Part shown: one piece after another, positions 5,597 to 12,251 of the stretch
Position numbering within the stretch: position 1 is the stretch's first letter
How the letters are laid out: every line of letters begins with the position of its first letter
Origin: Gammaproteobacteria bacterium
GTDB lineage: Bacteria > Pseudomonadota > Gammaproteobacteria > SG8-11
Reading direction: 5' to 3'
Assembly (NCBI GenBank): GCA_024641505.1
Contig: JAHECY010000017.1
Span: 1 to 50,978 of the forward strand
DNA: 50,978 bases
Notes under the pieces: model-generated
What the model was told of the DNA's origin: nothing
The model's database searches: none
Seen by the model: only the letters and a program-made list of their open reading frames with translations
Translations under genes and position numbers: made by a program

Positions 5597-6016
5597 GCTC
5601 TTTTATTGGTTTAGTTAAAGTTGCTTATATAGTTATTGGTGTTAAAACTCGTTGGCGAAACTTTCGAATAATGCGTCTCGCTCACTGGTGTTACTTTATA
5701 GCTCACCTTGGCGTAAATATGCAACAGGCAATCATAAAAACTGAGAAATCAAGCACGAATTTGTTGCACTAACGCAACATTCGAGAAATTCTACGCTTAT
5801 ATTTATCCGGTTATAAAAAAAAGGCCCGGTTTTACGCCGATTTGAAGCCTTTTTTACTTAATGTCGCCGCTTTGTTTATTATTCATGCAAAAAAACGCCG
5901 TTGATTCAACACTCAACACCGAAGGTTATAAGTTTATACAAACAAATTACAAGATTATGTCTGGCAGTGATTTTCTACCAAAAAAAAACTCGCTGGCGCG
6001 AGTTCTTTTATGCATT
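5597..6016. other. AT-rich intergenic region upstream of the porin gene
   Basis: About 420 bases between the porin start and tRNA-Gln. It holds a TATATA-like box near 5625 on the minus strand, an inverted repeat TGTTGC-N6-GCAACA around 5763-5778, and an A-tract/T-tract hairpin at 5816-5855 (arms AAAAAAAGGC and GCCTTTTTT) that could terminate transcription from either side. I see no convincing protein-coding frame. A small RNA between the hairpins is possible but unsupported. Confidence 0.5.
5979..6004 (-). terminator. Terminator of the tRNA-Gln transcript
   Basis: On the minus strand the stem AACTCGC/GCGAGTT with loop GCCA is followed by a run of T residues (A-run 5980-5988 on the plus strand). 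It lies 13 bases after the CCA end of the tRNA gene. Confidence 0.85.
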
Positions 6017-6090
6017 TGGCTGGGGGACTAGGATTCGAACCTAGGTTGACGGAGTCAGAGTCCGTAGTCCTGCCGCTAGACGATCCCCCA
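6017..6090 (-). tRNA. tRNA-Gln (anticodon CTG)
   Basis: The minus strand folds as a 74-base tRNA. The acceptor stem is TGGGGGA/TCCCCCA, the discriminator is G, and CCA is encoded in the DNA. The T arm is CCTAG-GTTCGAA-CTAG-like and the anticodon stem ACGGA/TCCGT encloses the seven-base loop CTCTGAC, giving anticodon CTG, which reads CAG (Gln). The opening T-A base pair of the acceptor stem is usual for bacterial tRNA-Gln. A terminator follows at once, so it is probably a single-gene transcript. Confidence 0.95.
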
Positions 6091-6393
6091 AAAAACTTAG
6101 CCCATCACCGCGAAATGACCATTATTTCACCACTTACGGGCGACGGAAGGCGTATTGTATGGCGGATGGGGCAGTGTTGTCGACCATGCATGCGCACATC
6201 ACCCACCTATTCTTGTCGCCCGGGATGACCACATAATACTCGCGACCAAAGCAAGTCCCTTTAAAGACTTACGCGCCAGAGCCGTAATTAGAGATTAGCC
6301 CGTAAACGTGTTTACCCAGCCTGTCACACGTGCGGGCCAGGGCGTGCATGCCGACGCCACACATGACTCATATTGAACAAACCGGTGCCTATC
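6091..6393. other. Region between tRNA-Gln and the giant gene
   Basis: About 300 bases holding the promoter of the minus-strand tRNA and the 5' region of the plus-strand giant gene. I could not identify a clear -35/-10 pair, a strong Shine-Dalgarno site, or a partial tRNA copy that would mark an integration site. Confidence 0.4.
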
Positions 6394-9300
6394 ATGTCCC
6401 GTTCCCAAGCCGACCCCGATCATAACACTGAGGCTGGCGCAGTGCCTGCCGGCAAACCTGAAGACCTGCTGGCACGCGACCTACCCTGGCCGACGCTGTC
6501 CCGGGAAACACAGGCATCACCGGTAACCCAGGCCATGTCGCTGCCCCAGATGGTCGATCCCGTGCGCGCCCGGGAAAGCCTGGCACAACTGCAAAATATC
6601 CTGCGACGCAGCGCCATCCCCGCCGCCAACACCATCGAAGCGTTGGACCAATTGGTGGATCATGTTGGCGAAGGTTATGAACTATTCAATATCCCCGGCA
6701 CCGCAGTGACGGATATTCTCTACCAAGCCGCCGTGGCACGATTGCAGGCGGGTGCCGCGGGCGGGCGCACGCAGCGGTACCTCGACCGTCTCTCGCACCT
6801 GAATGTTGAACCCGGGCAACAGACTATTCTTAACGCATGGCGCTCGTTCAACCAGGGCGCCATCAATGAAGCCATGGCCCAGTTGAGCGCCGAGGGAACG
6901 CCCGATGCTCGCGAACAAATATTACAGATGTATCTGCGCCAGCACGATCGGGTAGGTATCATCAATTGGTTTCTCAAGGAAGCACCCAAGGGCATCGAGA
7001 ATCTGTCGGCGGCGAGCTGGCACACCGTCGCGGCGACATTTGCCAAATCCGAACTTTGGGAGGAAGCTGCCGGCCTGCTGGCGCAAATGCAGCCCCAACA
7101 TTACGCGGCATGTCCTCATTTATATTATCTCGAGGGCATCATCAATCTGGCGTTGCTGTTACCGCCGGTGCACCGTAAAAAAATTCTATACCGGCAATTG
7201 TTCGGTATCAGGCACCTCCTCAGCCAACATCCTGCCGCACGCCATTATCGGGAACGCGCTCACTGGGCGCTGCAGCAAGCGACGCAATCGCTATCCGCCA
7301 TCGGCGCACCGGATCGGGCCGAGAAGGCTTTGCGCATGAGCACCTGGCTGCTGCTGACCGATCCGGCAACTTATGAACAAGGGGTCGCGGCGGTCCAGGA
7401 CGCCATGCACGAACCAACACGGGCAGCCTTGTATATTGAACTGGCCGCGGAATTCACCATCGCGGTGCACACCAGAGTACTGCAACGCTACCTCAATAAG
7501 CAGGCGTTGATCGCCGGTTTCGACGCCGATGAAATCGCTGCCCGCTATTTCTATCTCAAATACATTGGCAACCATGTCCAACTGATACAATTTTTAAGTT
7601 ACGAACAGGATAAACTGCAGCGCCGCGTGTTTGACGCCGGCACCTGGGCGGACTTCCTGATTCACGAACTGCTGGCAACAGACCGGTTTCCACGGGCGGA
7701 AGCCATAATGTACAGCCATCGGGAAACACTCACCGAGGACTTCCCGAAATGGAGTCACAATATCGCGCACCTGCGGTGCAACCTGGCAACGCCTTTTCAG
7801 AAATTCATCGACGACGAATCGGTAACCAATCTCAGCGCATTGTGCCGGCACTTGCAAGCCGCCGGCGATGCCGCGGCACTCAAACCTTTCGTCCAGGAAT
7901 TGTTTCAACGGCAACCCACGCTGGAACATGCCGTAGCCGTAGCGCAATGCCTCGTGACCACACGTGACGATCTGCTCCTGCTGACCTTCCTGGAGCAGAA
8001 TCTTGGATTAATGGAAGACGACGCCTACTTGACCCAGTGCTATGCCTGGTGTCAATTCCAGCAAGGCAACGTTCAGGTCGTGAGTCGCTTACTGGATCAA
8101 ACCGCGCAGCCGGCGTCGGACGGGCAGATATTGTCGCTCGCCTTGTACAACGCATTTACCGCCTGCGATTGGCGGCAACTGGCGCCACTGACAGACAAAC
8201 TGGGAACGGTGGATGCGACTTGGCAGGCGGATGATTTGTTGACCCTGGCACTGATCGTGGCGCCAATGGACAAACAACACGCCGTCGCCTTGATTACCCA
8301 GGCGGTGAACATCGCGGGCGACAAACCCCGACTGTTAACCCAAGCATACAACTTGATGGTGAATTTGGGGGAAAAGATCTCGGCCACTCCCTGGCTGTAC
8401 CGGGCAATTTGCGCCTACGACAATACTGGAGCACTCTGGCAGCATGGCTACAATCAAATCGTGGACATCGTCAGCAACGCGCGCGAATGCCCCTCGAACC
8501 TGTGGACCCATGTCAGCGCGGCGCACTTTCCCGCGGCGTTGGCCGCGCAGGCCTTGCACTACCCGCTGTCGGAATTGTTGGTCGGTCAGGCTCTGGCCAA
8601 TGAGCAGGACGGTGATGCGCGTTATCGCACCCTGATTCCACTGCACTTGGCGCATTGCGGCGCCAACGATATCTCCATGGCACGTTCCGTAGCCATGGAT
8701 TTCGGTGCGCTGTTGCTGGCGGAATCTTTGCAGTTGTGGCCACTGCTCACCCGGCGTTTCGATACCATTGTCATTCCCTTCAGCACCGCGGGTGTACTGC
8801 GTGAGGAACAACTCAAGCTGCAACACGGCCAACTGCCCCGGTTTGAGATTGCCAGCCACTTGTTGGCGCACGTCGAGCAAGGCCGTATTGATATACTGTT
8901 GCCGATCAGCACACACCCACCGGCGTGGCTGGTCAATGAAGTTGGCGTCACGCGGGCGCAGCTGCTGCACGCCGCGCACACCAACCGGGGCAAGGTGATT
9001 CTACCGACACCGATATTCAAGTCCTATTCCATGGCCTGCGAAGAGGCCGAGCTGGGCATATACGATGAATGCATCGTCTCTACCCACCAATGTCTGGATG
9101 TGTTGGTGCGCAACCTGAGCGCCGCGCATCGCACTACCGCAAAAAGTTATTTATCAGACATGGACACCGACCACATTCACACCATGGCGAAGCAACATGA
9201 CGGCCCGATTTATCTGGACGAACAAGCCCTGGTGTATCTCAGCGACGCCAGAGTACTGGACGAAGCCCTGAATTCAGGTCACCACTACTGCATTCACAGC

Positions 9301-11802
9301 AGCACCGTCCAGGAGCTGCACGATACGCTCACCGCAGCCAGCTACCGCGAAGACACGATGCGTGTACTGGAATCCTTGCAGCAACGTTTGCAGCAAGGCA
9401 TTGCCGCCGGCAATATCAGACTCACGCCGCGACTCAAATCAAAATATAATGTCCATACCCTTGCCGGCTCCATCGTGGAGCTTTTGGATGGTTACTCCTA
9501 CGCGGATTTTTACTGGATCGATGATCGTAGCCTGAGTAGCCGCAAGAATCATCTCAACAGCGAAGACCGGCGCCAGAAACGTCTGATCGGCCTGCTGGAT
9601 ATTATCGACGAACTGGCGGACAGCGGGTTGCTCAGCAAGCAGGAAAAATTCGCACTGCGGCTTAACTTGCGCCGGCGCGGTTACTACGCGATACCGCTGG
9701 AACTGCCGGAGCTGCATTTCTGGCTGGCCGAATCCCGGATGGACAGCACCGGCAAACGCCTGATGGAAACCGATGCCTTGCGAGACCTGCGGCATTACAC
9801 CCAACAGATCATGGCCAATCAAGTGTTGCAACTTCCCGCCGAAGCCTATTTCATGGATCGCCTGCATCTGACCGTGATGGTGGCGGTCCGCGACACTTGG
9901 GCCCAATCGGAGAATTCCCTGGCGTTGGCCGAAGCCCGTTCCACATGGTTGGCGGATGAGTTGTTTCCAAAGCTTACCCAATGGCGTCATGCGTTGGAAC
10001 CGGCCATGAATCTCTATTTTTTCGAGGACACCAGCGCCATGTCGATCGCCGCTTTTCTGGCATTGCAACCGGCCGATCCACGACGGGCGGCAGCGTATTT
10101 GCGCTGGCTGGGACAATCGCAGTTAACACCCCTGGAAACACGCAACTGGCCGGTAATCGAAAAAACCGCCGCCATGCATGCACAACAGTTAGTAACCGTG
10201 GTATCCGCGGAGAAAGCATCCGGCACCACCGTGACGCCTGCATTGCTTGGCGCTTATATCGATATGTTACCGCCACTATTGCATCCCATGTTGAACCGGG
10301 ACGCCGACCTGGGCCGCCTGACCGGCAGCATTTCCGATTCCAAAGCGAGTGACTTGATATTTGCCGAGCAACGCGCCGTACTGCTGGCGCGCTTAACCTC
10401 CAACATCAATGACCTGACGCAACTCGTACCCACAGACATGGGATATTATGAAGCCCTGTGTGGCACAACACACGACTACTATGAAATAGCGGATTACCTT
10501 AACCGTGTCTGGGAGCCGCATCTGCAACAGTTACTGGCAACGGATCTGGTCGCGGGCTTAACCATCGCGTTGCCGACCGGCGTATTCAACTGTACCCGCA
10601 TCCGGCACGCCCTGAATGACATCGATAACGATACGCTGTGGAACGCTCTGGCAGTCGCGCGGGAAGCCCGTGACCCAATCACCCTGCTCAACCTGCTCGA
10701 TCTGAGCCTGTGCCGCAGCGCTGATGCGCGCTACCATGACCTGGCTGAACACCTGATCGCGCGTCTGCATCAGCAACGCCTGCTCCATGCGGACCGCCAT
10801 GACCTCTATGTTGTGTTCCCGAAACTGCTGGCATATCTCTACCAGCGCCTGCGTCATCTACCGAGGCTGTCGGAACTCCCTGAATACTGGTTGCGCCTGT
10901 GCGCCTGGAGCCACTGCGGCATGCTGATCAACGACTGCTGCCGGCTTCAGGTCGACTTCGGACCATTGCTTGTATTGCTCGACGCCGAGGCAACCGTCCC
11001 CCGGGAAATCACCGATCTGGTGCAAGTGCTCGCCACGCCCGGTGCGCGCATGATGCTGCCGTCGCAATGCGATTTTCCGCTGGTGATGGAGAACCTGATG
11101 CAACGCATGCTCACCGGCTTGCTGGAAGCTCAAGCGATCCCGGATCACAGCGCACCACTCCGGCAAAATCTGGAACTGCTGCTGGCGCCACGCGCGGAGC
11201 AACGCCGCCCCTGGTTTCGAGATATCCACGATCTTGACATGCCCGATGACGTCATGCCAAATACGCGGCCGGCGTTGATGCCGGCGGTGGTGCAGGATTT
11301 GAAATCCAAGGTCGACAGCGACCCCCGGAATCCTTTATGGAAACATTTAGGATTAGTGGCACAAACCTGGACCCTGCCTCCCGATCTGTTGGCGACCGTG
11401 GCAGCGGCGCTACCACTCATGACGCTGGCCAAAGACCCGGAGCAACGTCACATGCAACTGGCGGCGCTCGGCGATTTGGCCTATCTACCGTGCATTTGCC
11501 GGCACCAGGACTTAGGGAGCGCGTTTCTGATGTTGTGCATGCGCACCATACGCCTCTATGGCATAACCCAAAGCGAGGTACGTCTGTATTTCACCAACGG
11601 CATGCTGGCCAGCAGTCACGGGGAAAATCTGCAGGAAAACTTCCGTCAATTCAATCTGTACCTGCGTCACCTGCTGTCGGAAATTACGGAACACGAGTCA
11701 CTGCAAACTCTGCAGATGTTGATCCGTAGCGTGAAACAAGAAACTTCAGTAAATATCTGGGGCTTCTCCCAGAGCGAGGCATTGCTGGGCATGGCGCTGT
11801 AA
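6394..11802 (+). CDS. Giant helical-repeat protein with two PIN-like domains
   Basis: An 1802-residue soluble protein without signal peptide or membrane spans. Residues about 50-740 look like an alpha-helical solenoid of TPR type. A first PIN-like segment begins at Asp769 (Ala-Met-Asp-Phe-Gly-Ala-Leu-Leu). A second, better preserved one begins at Asp942 (Ile-Tyr-Leu-Asp-Glu-Gln-Ala-Leu), with Glu974 in Val-Gln-Glu-Leu and Asp1043-Asp1044 in Trp-Ile-Asp-Asp-Arg, an acidic set like that of PIN ribonucleases. The rest to 1802 is again helical. Known large bacterial proteins combine TPRs and PIN domains, some in conflict or RNA-processing roles; the function here is inferred only. The ATG at 6394 is chosen; a TTG at 6373 is in frame, and neither has a clear ribosome site. 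The gene stands alone between tRNA-Gln and the S9/L13 operon. Confidence 0.8.
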   Translation: MSRSQADPDHNTEAGAVPAGKPEDLLARDLPWPTLSRETQASPVTQAMSLPQMVDPVRARESLAQLQNILRRSAIPAANTIEALDQLVDHVGEGYELFNIPGTAVTDILYQAAVARLQAGAAGGRTQRYLDRLSHLNVEPGQQTILNAWRSFNQGAINEAMAQLSAEGTPDAREQILQMYLRQHDRVGIINWFLKEAPKGIENLSAASWHTVAATFAKSELWEEAAGLLAQMQPQHYAACPHLYYLEGIINLALLLPPVHRKKILYRQLFGIRHLLSQHPAARHYRERAHWALQQATQSLSAIGAPDRAEKALRMSTWLLLTDPATYEQGVAAVQDAMHEPTRAALYIELAAEFTIAVHTRVLQRYLNKQALIAGFDADEIAARYFYLKYIGNHVQLIQFLSYEQDKLQRRVFDAGTWADFLIHELLATDRFPRAEAIMYSHRETLTEDFPKWSHNIAHLRCNLATPFQKFIDDESVTNLSALCRHLQAAGDAAALKPFVQELFQRQPTLEHAVAVAQCLVTTRDDLLLLTFLEQNLGLMEDDAYLTQCYAWCQFQQGNVQVVSRLLDQTAQPASDGQILSLALYNAFTACDWRQLAPLTDKLGTVDATWQADDLLTLALIVAPMDKQHAVALITQAVNIAGDKPRLLTQAYNLMVNLGEKISATPWLYRAICAYDNTGALWQHGYNQIVDIVSNARECPSNLWTHVSAAHFPAALAAQALHYPLSELLVGQALANEQDGDARYRTLIPLHLAHCGANDISMARSVAMDFGALLLAESLQLWPLLTRRFDTIVIPFSTAGVLREEQLKLQHGQLPRFEIASHLLAHVEQGRIDILLPISTHPPAWLVNEVGVTRAQLLHAAHTNRGKVILPTPIFKSYSMACEEAELGIYDECIVSTHQCLDVLVRNLSAAHRTTAKSYLSDMDTDHIHTMAKQHDGPIYLDEQALVYLSDARVLDEALNSGHHYCIHSSTVQELHDTLTAASYREDTMRVLESLQQRLQQGIAAGNIRLTPRLKSKYNVHTLAGSIVELLDGYSYADFYWIDDRSLSSRKNHLNSEDRRQKRLIGLLDIIDELADSGLLSKQEKFALRLNLRRRGYYAIPLELPELHFWLAESRMDSTGKRLMETDALRDLRHYTQQIMANQVLQLPAEAYFMDRLHLTVMVAVRDTWAQSENSLALAEARSTWLADELFPKLTQWRHALEPAMNLYFFEDTSAMSIAAFLALQPADPRRAAAYLRWLGQSQLTPLETRNWPVIEKTAAMHAQQLVTVVSAEKASGTTVTPALLGAYIDMLPPLLHPMLNRDADLGRLTGSISDSKASDLIFAEQRAVLLARLTSNINDLTQLVPTDMGYYEALCGTTHDYYEIADYLNRVWEPHLQQLLATDLVAGLTIALPTGVFNCTRIRHALNDIDNDTLWNALAVAREARDPITLLNLLDLSLCRSADARYHDLAEHLIARLHQQRLLHADRHDLYVVFPKLLAYLYQRLRHLPRLSELPEYWLRLCAWSHCGMLINDCCRLQVDFGPLLVLLDAEATVPREITDLVQVLATPGARMMLPSQCDFPLVMENLMQRMLTGLLEAQAIPDHSAPLRQNLELLLAPRAEQRRPWFRDIHDLDMPDDVMPNTRPALMPAVVQDLKSKVDSDPRNPLWKHLGLVAQTWTLPPDLLATVAAALPLMTLAKDPEQRHMQLAALGDLAYLPCICRHQDLGSAFLMLCMRTIRLYGITQSEVRLYFTNGMLASSHGENLQENFRQFNLYLRHLLSEITEHESLQTLQMLIRSVKQETSVNIWGFSQSEALLGMAL

Positions 11803-11821
11803 AGCGCGCTATTTTGCGGGC

Positions 11822-11853
11822 AAAAAAAAAGGCGGTGACAACCGCCTTTTTTT
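11822..11853. terminator. Bidirectional terminator
   Basis: The stem GGCGGT/ACCGCC with loop GACA is flanked by nine A on the left and seven T on the right, so it can stop both the giant gene (plus) and rpsI (minus). Confidence 0.9.
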
Positions 11854-11867
11854 CGTTTGCAAAGTGC

Positions 11868-12251
11868 TTAACGCTTGGAGTACTGAGGACGCTTGCGCGC
11901 CTTGTGCAGACCCACTTTCTTACGTTCCACCTCACGCGCATCCCGGGTCAGATAGCCACCCTGGCGCAGCGTTGAGCGCAAACCATCGTTATGCGCCAAC
12001 AGGGCGCGGGCGATACCGTGCCGAATGGCGCCGGCCTGGCCGATGTCACCACCGCCGCGCACGTTGACGTTGATGTCGAACTGGTCGTTGGTATTGGTGG
12101 ACACCAGGGGCTGACGCACCAGCATCCGGGCGGTTTCCCGGCCGAAATACTTGTCCAGATCCAGATGATTCACCGTAATCTTGCCACTGCCCTTTTTCAA
12201 AAATACTCTGGCGGTGGAACTCTTGCGCCGACCTACACTGATTAATTGCAT
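11868..12251 (-). CDS. rpsI: 30S ribosomal protein S9
   Basis: A 127-residue protein of normal length. It shows the S9 signature: the opening [11 protein letters not shown], the [15 protein letters not shown] motif, and the basic tail ending Arg-Pro-Gln-Tyr-Ser-Lys-Arg, which in S9 reaches toward the P-site tRNA. It is 19 bases downstream of rplM, forming the standard L13-S9 operon. Confidence 0.99.

Follow-up and report, generated by a model that had tools for sequence, protein, structure and literature searches.

A predicted divergent HTH-double-PIN protein, apparently without a GreA/B-C domain, is encoded by a stand-alone gene between tRNA-Gln and rpsI

The stretch of DNA analyzed here (the window) is a 51-kb contig (50,978 nucleotides; JAHECY010000017.1) of the 222-contig metagenome assembly of a Gammaproteobacteria bacterium, GCA_024641505.1. 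On its forward strand, at 6394..11802, lies a giant gene whose product has a predicted helix-turn-helix (HTH) domain followed by two PIN-like segments. The open reading frame (ORF) is single and uninterrupted, starting with ATG and running for 1802 codons without an internal stop; an alternative TTG start is found at 6373, 21 bases upstream of the ATG. The 1802-residue protein has long homology to two proteins from other genomes, P0007 (E 3e-83) and P0002 (E 1e-58). The ORF and its neighbors agree with a first-pass annotation, made from the sequence alone, which described a single gene standing alone, and no partner gene lies beside it. A tRNA-Gln (CTG) gene occupies 6017..6090 on the reverse strand, with its 5' end and not its 3' end pointing toward the giant gene. 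The approximately 300 non-coding bases between the two (6091-6393) are without counterpart in the short intervals of related genomes, and may have arrived together with the giant gene. On the other side, a perfect, terminator-like inverted repeat with A/T tails (11824..11853; repeat pair I16) separates the giant gene from the downstream boundary, rpsI (ribosomal protein S9; 11868..12251, reverse strand); rpsI-rplM is convergent with the giant gene and starts 65 bases downstream of it. The GC content of the giant gene, 0.55-0.58, is similar to that of its surroundings.

Profiles of the two PIN segments were each built from 27 relatives with the window row excluded, and were run against the window's stop-to-stop frames of 100 residues or more, 165 in number, where the gene's own frame was swapped for the window protein (P0001). 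These profiles match residues 763-878 (PIN1; 8680..9027, forward strand) with an independent E-value (i-E) of 1.1e-13 and residues 939-1078 (PIN2; 9208..9627, forward strand) with an i-E of 1.2e-13, and match no other long frame of the window at i-E < 1. The Pfam family PF20698 (PIN-TPR-GreABC), which describes the PIN domain of the TPR-GreA/B-C-PIN system, matches 27 of the 28 scanned members of the family in each segment, and the relatives P0002 and P0005 exceed its cut-off. Judged from these matches, both segments of the window protein share homology with that system's PIN domains. The likeness of PIN1 to PIN2 in hhalign is weak (probability 5.6, P 0.0068).

An AlphaFold2 model of residues 640-1290 (651 residues, 31 sequences) reached a mean predicted local distance difference test score (pLDDT) of 79.7. 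It contains two alpha/beta cores, with pLDDT mostly at 85-95, in which a PIN-like order of strands and helices occurs twice, and helical repeats follow; the order of strands and helices and the placement of the acids fit those of PIN domains. The strands fall at 765-768, 791-794, 832-835 and 867-869 in PIN1 and at 939-941, 965-968, 1008-1010 and 1039-1041 in PIN2. In PIN2, Asp942 follows strand 1, Glu974 lies within the helix after strand 2, and Asp1043, Asp1044 and Arg1045 follow strand 4; the acidic set proposed in the first-pass annotation is thus present in full, and marks PIN2 as the candidate active site. Asp1043 is conserved in 29, Asp1044 in 30 and Asp942 in 29 of 30 relatives in alignment A4. 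PIN1 retains Asp769 after strand 1 and Glu805 within the helix after strand 2, and neither the window protein nor its relatives have an acid after strand 4; the acids that most relatives carry at 852/853 and 860 are replaced by V, T and A. The model supports a predicted PIN fold for both segments, and the alignment supports PIN1 as a degenerate PIN domain, in agreement with the earlier description of two PIN-like segments embedded in helical repeats, the first of them degenerate. The window protein keeps 56 of 102 strongly conserved positions, including Asp942, Asp1043, Asp1044 and Glu805. Where conservation reaches at least 27 of 30 relatives, all four PIN-site acids are kept, against 52 of the 98 other positions.

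Two relatives (L022, P0008; L023, P0009) seem to have a single PIN domain, PIN1-like in its first half and PIN2-like in its second. Their sequences suggest that the double PIN arose through, or collapsed via, internal duplication.

Directly before PIN1, residues 689-751 (8458..8646, forward strand) match HTH_upst_double_PIN (PF24407) over its curated cut-off, with 35.1 bits against a cut-off of 27 in the Pfam scan of the protein and 40.5 bits in the genome search. With this match and two family-homologous PIN segments downstream, the protein has both features of the PF24407 HTH-double-PIN proteins; its score is low next to the 82-92 bits of relatives in genomes G046 and G354. The part before the HTH (residues 1-688; 6394..8457, forward strand) has no effector domain and is predicted to be helical and TPR-like. 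No Pfam TPR match was obtained in the window protein; matches are present in P0003, P0007 and P0009, over the cut-off only in P0009, and it is the alignment to these relatives that points to helical repeats in the N-terminal 640 residues. Homology to P0007 begins at residue 34, with no Pfam match before it, which leaves no room for an N-terminal effector or effector-associated domain (EAD). Seven of the 32 loci of relatives likewise begin at most 60 residues from the common part. Models of PADLOC and NCBIfam returned nothing for the 1802-residue protein.

The region behind the PIN segments also differs from that of the relatives. Between the anchors W1238 and P1346 (window numbering; residues 1238-1346, 10105..10431, forward strand), where the permuted GreA/B-C segment of the relatives falls, the window protein has 108 residues against the 221-261 counted in 42 of 43 distinct relatives, a shortfall of 113-153 residues. 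The sole exception is L070, with 148 residues, whose gene is broken into three ORFs. For two-gene relatives the interval was summed from the end of the first gene and the start of the second; P0004 and the Leptolyngbya row carry a different residue at the second anchor, the fragmented gene of L077 is omitted, and P0002 and L047, which are the same protein, are counted once. Permuted_GreAB-C (PF24388) is over its cut-off in P0002 and P0006 and below it in P0008 and P0009; it has no match in the window protein and none over the cut-off in the whole genome. A 31-row hidden Markov model (HMM) of GreA/B-C finds P0002, P0006, Mthal and Afab, and finds P0007, the cyanobacterial rows, P0003 and P0009 without confidence. 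Because it misses several relatives with a full interval, its silence on the window protein was not used as evidence, and the interval length was used instead. The C-terminal structure model, whose pLDDT is 62.8 and falls mostly below 50 in the first 165 residues, is uninformative on GreA/B-C. By the measure of interval length, the GreA/B-C domain, which docks on RNA polymerase in the published model, is lost in the window protein. Behind the gap, residues 1343-1802 (10420..11799, forward strand) form a helical C-terminal region, whose homologue in the two-gene relatives is encoded by their second gene.

In the part of PMC8195603 (eLife 2021) that deals with it, TPR-GreA/B-C-PIN is a predicted conflict system with a constant core of TPR, GreA/B-C and PIN and a variable effector in front, encoded mostly by standalone genes and proposed to act on RNA polymerase transcribing viral DNA. 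The window protein resembles this description in its predicted helical, TPR-like N-terminus, its PIN domains, its scattered distribution and its giant, standalone gene, and it shares the HTH with the relatives in the present set. It departs from the same description in having neither GreA/B-C nor an N-terminal effector or EAD, and in its extreme divergence. Since these two modules are missing, the window protein is, by its domain content, not classed as a TPR-GreA/B-C-PIN system and is placed as a divergent member of the related HTH-double-PIN family; and since GreA/B-C is absent, the published docking on RNA polymerase is not transferable to it as it stands. The nearest relative by score, P0007 (genome G432, L021:7936-14091), is 24% identical over residues 34-1191 and 28% over 1328-1511 and shares the HTH and the two PIN segments, but it keeps a 221-residue interval, has about 125 extra N-terminal residues and sits behind genes for DUF1156 and DUF499 proteins.

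The family is scattered. Counting the window's own genome throughout, a query with the window protein found it in two of 55 related genomes, five of 398 genomes of the phylum and one of five genomes of the order; PF24407 found members in four of 184 and four of 398 genomes, and a four-row alignment in five of 369 genomes of the class. The relatives from these searches are distant, of about 1930-2120 residues or split into two genes, and identity of the window protein to its relatives is 20-26%. Plasmid records gave eight matches (Methylophaga, Agrobacterium, cyanobacteria); no relative was found in phage records, and none in two scans of viral contigs. The window protein alone matched nothing in the species genomes, while the sub-family scan (A3) of these genomes yielded 32 loci from Pseudomonadota, Bacillota, Cyanobacteriota, Acidobacteriota, Bacteroidota and others. 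Alignment A4 is without L070 and L077; A7 and A8 are also without L068, L074 and L076, and A5 is without L070, L074, L076 and L077.

Comparison of the locus in four other genomes of the order, which are 68-84% complete, gives insight into its history. The giant gene was found in none of the four. In three of them (G002, G003, G004) tRNA-Gln and rpsI are adjacent with no gene between them, and in the fourth (G001) the contig stops inside rpsI. The empty interval in three of the four relatives indicates that the giant gene was probably inserted between tRNA-Gln and rpsI, gene loss in the relatives being the alternative. Acquisition, as the first-pass annotation had suggested, is therefore probable. 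Classical integration at a tRNA 3' end was rejected, as the gene lies on the 5' side of the tRNA and no att-like repeat was seen in 5900-12000 among the matches listed (20 of 34 repeat families). The same annotation had raised tRNA as a possible target; we reject this idea because the relatives show the same tRNA-Gln/rpsI order, which explains the adjacency. Its broader suggestion of an RNA-targeting or defense protein fares better, as a defense role is predicted for the family, both in the section of PMC8195603 devoted to it and from the swappable N-terminal domains of the relatives (HNH, restriction-type, PNPase, death-like and hydrolase).

An interpretation can be built on what was observed, namely homology, the order of the domains, the retained acids, the missing modules and the empty site in relatives. 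We propose that the giant gene encodes a stand-alone protein, probably acquired horizontally, that descends from the TPR/HTH/double-PIN polypeptide of the published TPR-GreA/B-C-PIN systems, and that this protein is an auto-inhibited ribonuclease (RNase) acting via PIN2 independently of RNA polymerase; in our judgment this proposal has about an even chance of being right. Here catalysis, RNA as substrate, auto-inhibition and defense are what we infer. Sensing or binding of an invader-related partner would fall to the long helical repeats together with the HTH, and PIN1, catalytically dead, would serve as a structural or inhibitory lid. Upon activation PIN2, through Asp942, Glu974 and Asp1043/1044 and in a metal-dependent manner, would cut RNA, leading to growth arrest or destruction of transcripts. 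Because GreA/B-C and the N-terminal effector are absent, this would happen with no docking in the secondary channel of RNA polymerase and no back-up effector. A more specific version, offered tentatively as one possibility, is that the protein represents a minimal branch of the double-PIN conflict proteins that works independently of RNA polymerase, in which one polypeptide would detect an invader with its repeats and HTH and then fire PIN2, PIN1 being the built-in inhibitor. A PIN protein working alone has a precedent in DS-3 (DefensePredictor, PMC13092281), described as a one-protein PIN ribonuclease with no antitoxin and with proposed auto-inhibition, whose catalytic residues are required for phage defense; the likeness drawn here is one of description, a single protein with PIN and without antitoxin. 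Among the papers listed in literature searches, no experimental test of the TPR-GreA/B-C-PIN family was seen. PIN-type acidic RNase sites are also those of the VapC toxins, which are small and paired with antitoxins, unlike the giant window protein, and hhalign of PIN1 or PIN2 with one VapC gave no match.

Several results weigh against this proposal. Family profiles match both segments, but PF20698 stays below its cut-off of 27.8 bits in the window protein, with 15.6 bits for the whole protein (match at 940-989) and 19 bits (E 0.0018) for the PIN2 segment alone, and it does not match PIN1. Neither Foldseek (no match at E <= 0.001) nor VIA-align returned a PIN row for the 651-residue model. P0007 has no equivalent of Asp942, and the residue is missing also in P0003, P0004 and the plasmid rows from cyanobacteria; this first Asp of PIN2 is therefore not shared by all members of the family. 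The family-conserved H1025, P1026 and N1048 of PIN2 are replaced, and 46 of the 102 strongly conserved positions are altered. In the tree the window protein sits near P0007 on a very long branch (2.59), a placement that the tool called unsure, and no closer relative was found among 398 genomes of the phylum or five of the order. Relaxed constraint would also account for the long branch and for the loss of many conserved residues. The main rival, which we regard as serious though unlikely, is that of a decaying remnant that has lost its effector and GreA/B-C and drifts without function, its frame still open through recent acquisition or chance. The two missing modules agree with it, and there is no closer relative to show selection. 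On the other hand, the 1802 codons are free of stops, the deletion is in frame, the GC content resembles the surroundings, and the PIN-site acids have been spared where nearly half of the comparably conserved positions have not.

The remaining alternatives concern the missing domain and the neighboring tRNA. The protein could still act at RNA polymerase, with the role of GreA/B-C taken over by a separate host protein, for instance GreA, or by a remnant at 1300-1345 that has diverged; the helical C-terminal region, which in most relatives travels as a second gene with GreA/B-C, has been kept. With 113-153 residues gone at the place of the domain and no PF24388 over the cut-off in the genome, we find this improbable. 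That the gap is a metagenome assembly error has in its favor that the window is one contig of 222, and is rendered quite improbable by a gap that is in frame, lies inside a 51-kb contig and replaces a whole domain by about 35 residues of no evident similarity. Least probable of all is an enzyme of housekeeping type that processes RNA or cuts tRNA and is tied to the adjacent tRNA-Gln: adjacency and the PIN-type domains speak for it, whereas the gene was not found in the four other genomes of the order, three of which have tRNA-Gln and rpsI side by side without it.

The published model of the family rests on GreA/B-C, and a natural single-gene member without this domain separates the PIN part from the role at the polymerase. 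Should the window protein have kept a defense activity, its PIN part would act by itself and the model of action at RNA polymerase would have to be revised; should it have none, GreA/B-C would be required. Should the protein represent a minimal branch, GreA/B-C would be dispensable and the transcription-channel model would not cover the whole family.

Searches for a solved structure gave little further information. By phmmer, no solved relative was found among the PDB sequences, and the PIN profiles gave only chance-like rows in one search of the PDB and none in the other. The best VIA-align row, NOT1 (Z 8.3), covers the helical part at 442-620 of the model and lies within the common range of the tool; it was rejected.

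The N-terminal modules of the relatives vary: HNH in P0002 (L047), an Mrr-type domain in L061 and weakly in P0004, PNPase in P0009 and L064, metallophosphatase in L050, SMEK in L052 and alpha/beta hydrolase in L071, while P0008 begins with bDLD3 and its gene lies beside one for PNPase-bDLD3. A Pfam scan of ten N-termini left four without any family (L055, L056, L063, L078). The alpha/beta hydrolase-like N-terminus recurs in L062, L065, L067, L068 and L071-L076, assigned by Pfam in L071, the one of these that was scanned, and recognized visually in the rest by sequence resemblance. The effectors listed in PMC8195603 (section 7) do not include it.

The neighbor scan covered 82 of 144 listed neighbor ORFs, in a selection favoring larger ones. 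No partner recurs among these 82, Phage_integrase being seen at three, and PADLOC matches are scattered (AbiE, SduA, PD-Lambda-3 and candidate PDC models), with at most two of 82 per model among the best 25 of 113 families. Restriction genes lie beside some relatives, namely HsdR at L023 and a gene for an HsdR N-terminal domain at L042. The genes for a DUF1156 methyltransferase-like protein and DUF499 directly before P0007 (L021:1264-7914) are co-directional with it and separated by short gaps. Most relatives consist of two genes split at the same place, with TPR-HTH-double PIN in the first and GreA/B-C plus the helical C-terminal part in the second. These adjoin or overlap, as at L020:6958-12689, L041:5608-11575, L042:5104-11609 and most of L049-L078. 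The published account (PMC8195603, section 7), by contrast, has a single polypeptide. The C-terminal gene encodes about 640 residues and is conserved with the PIN gene.
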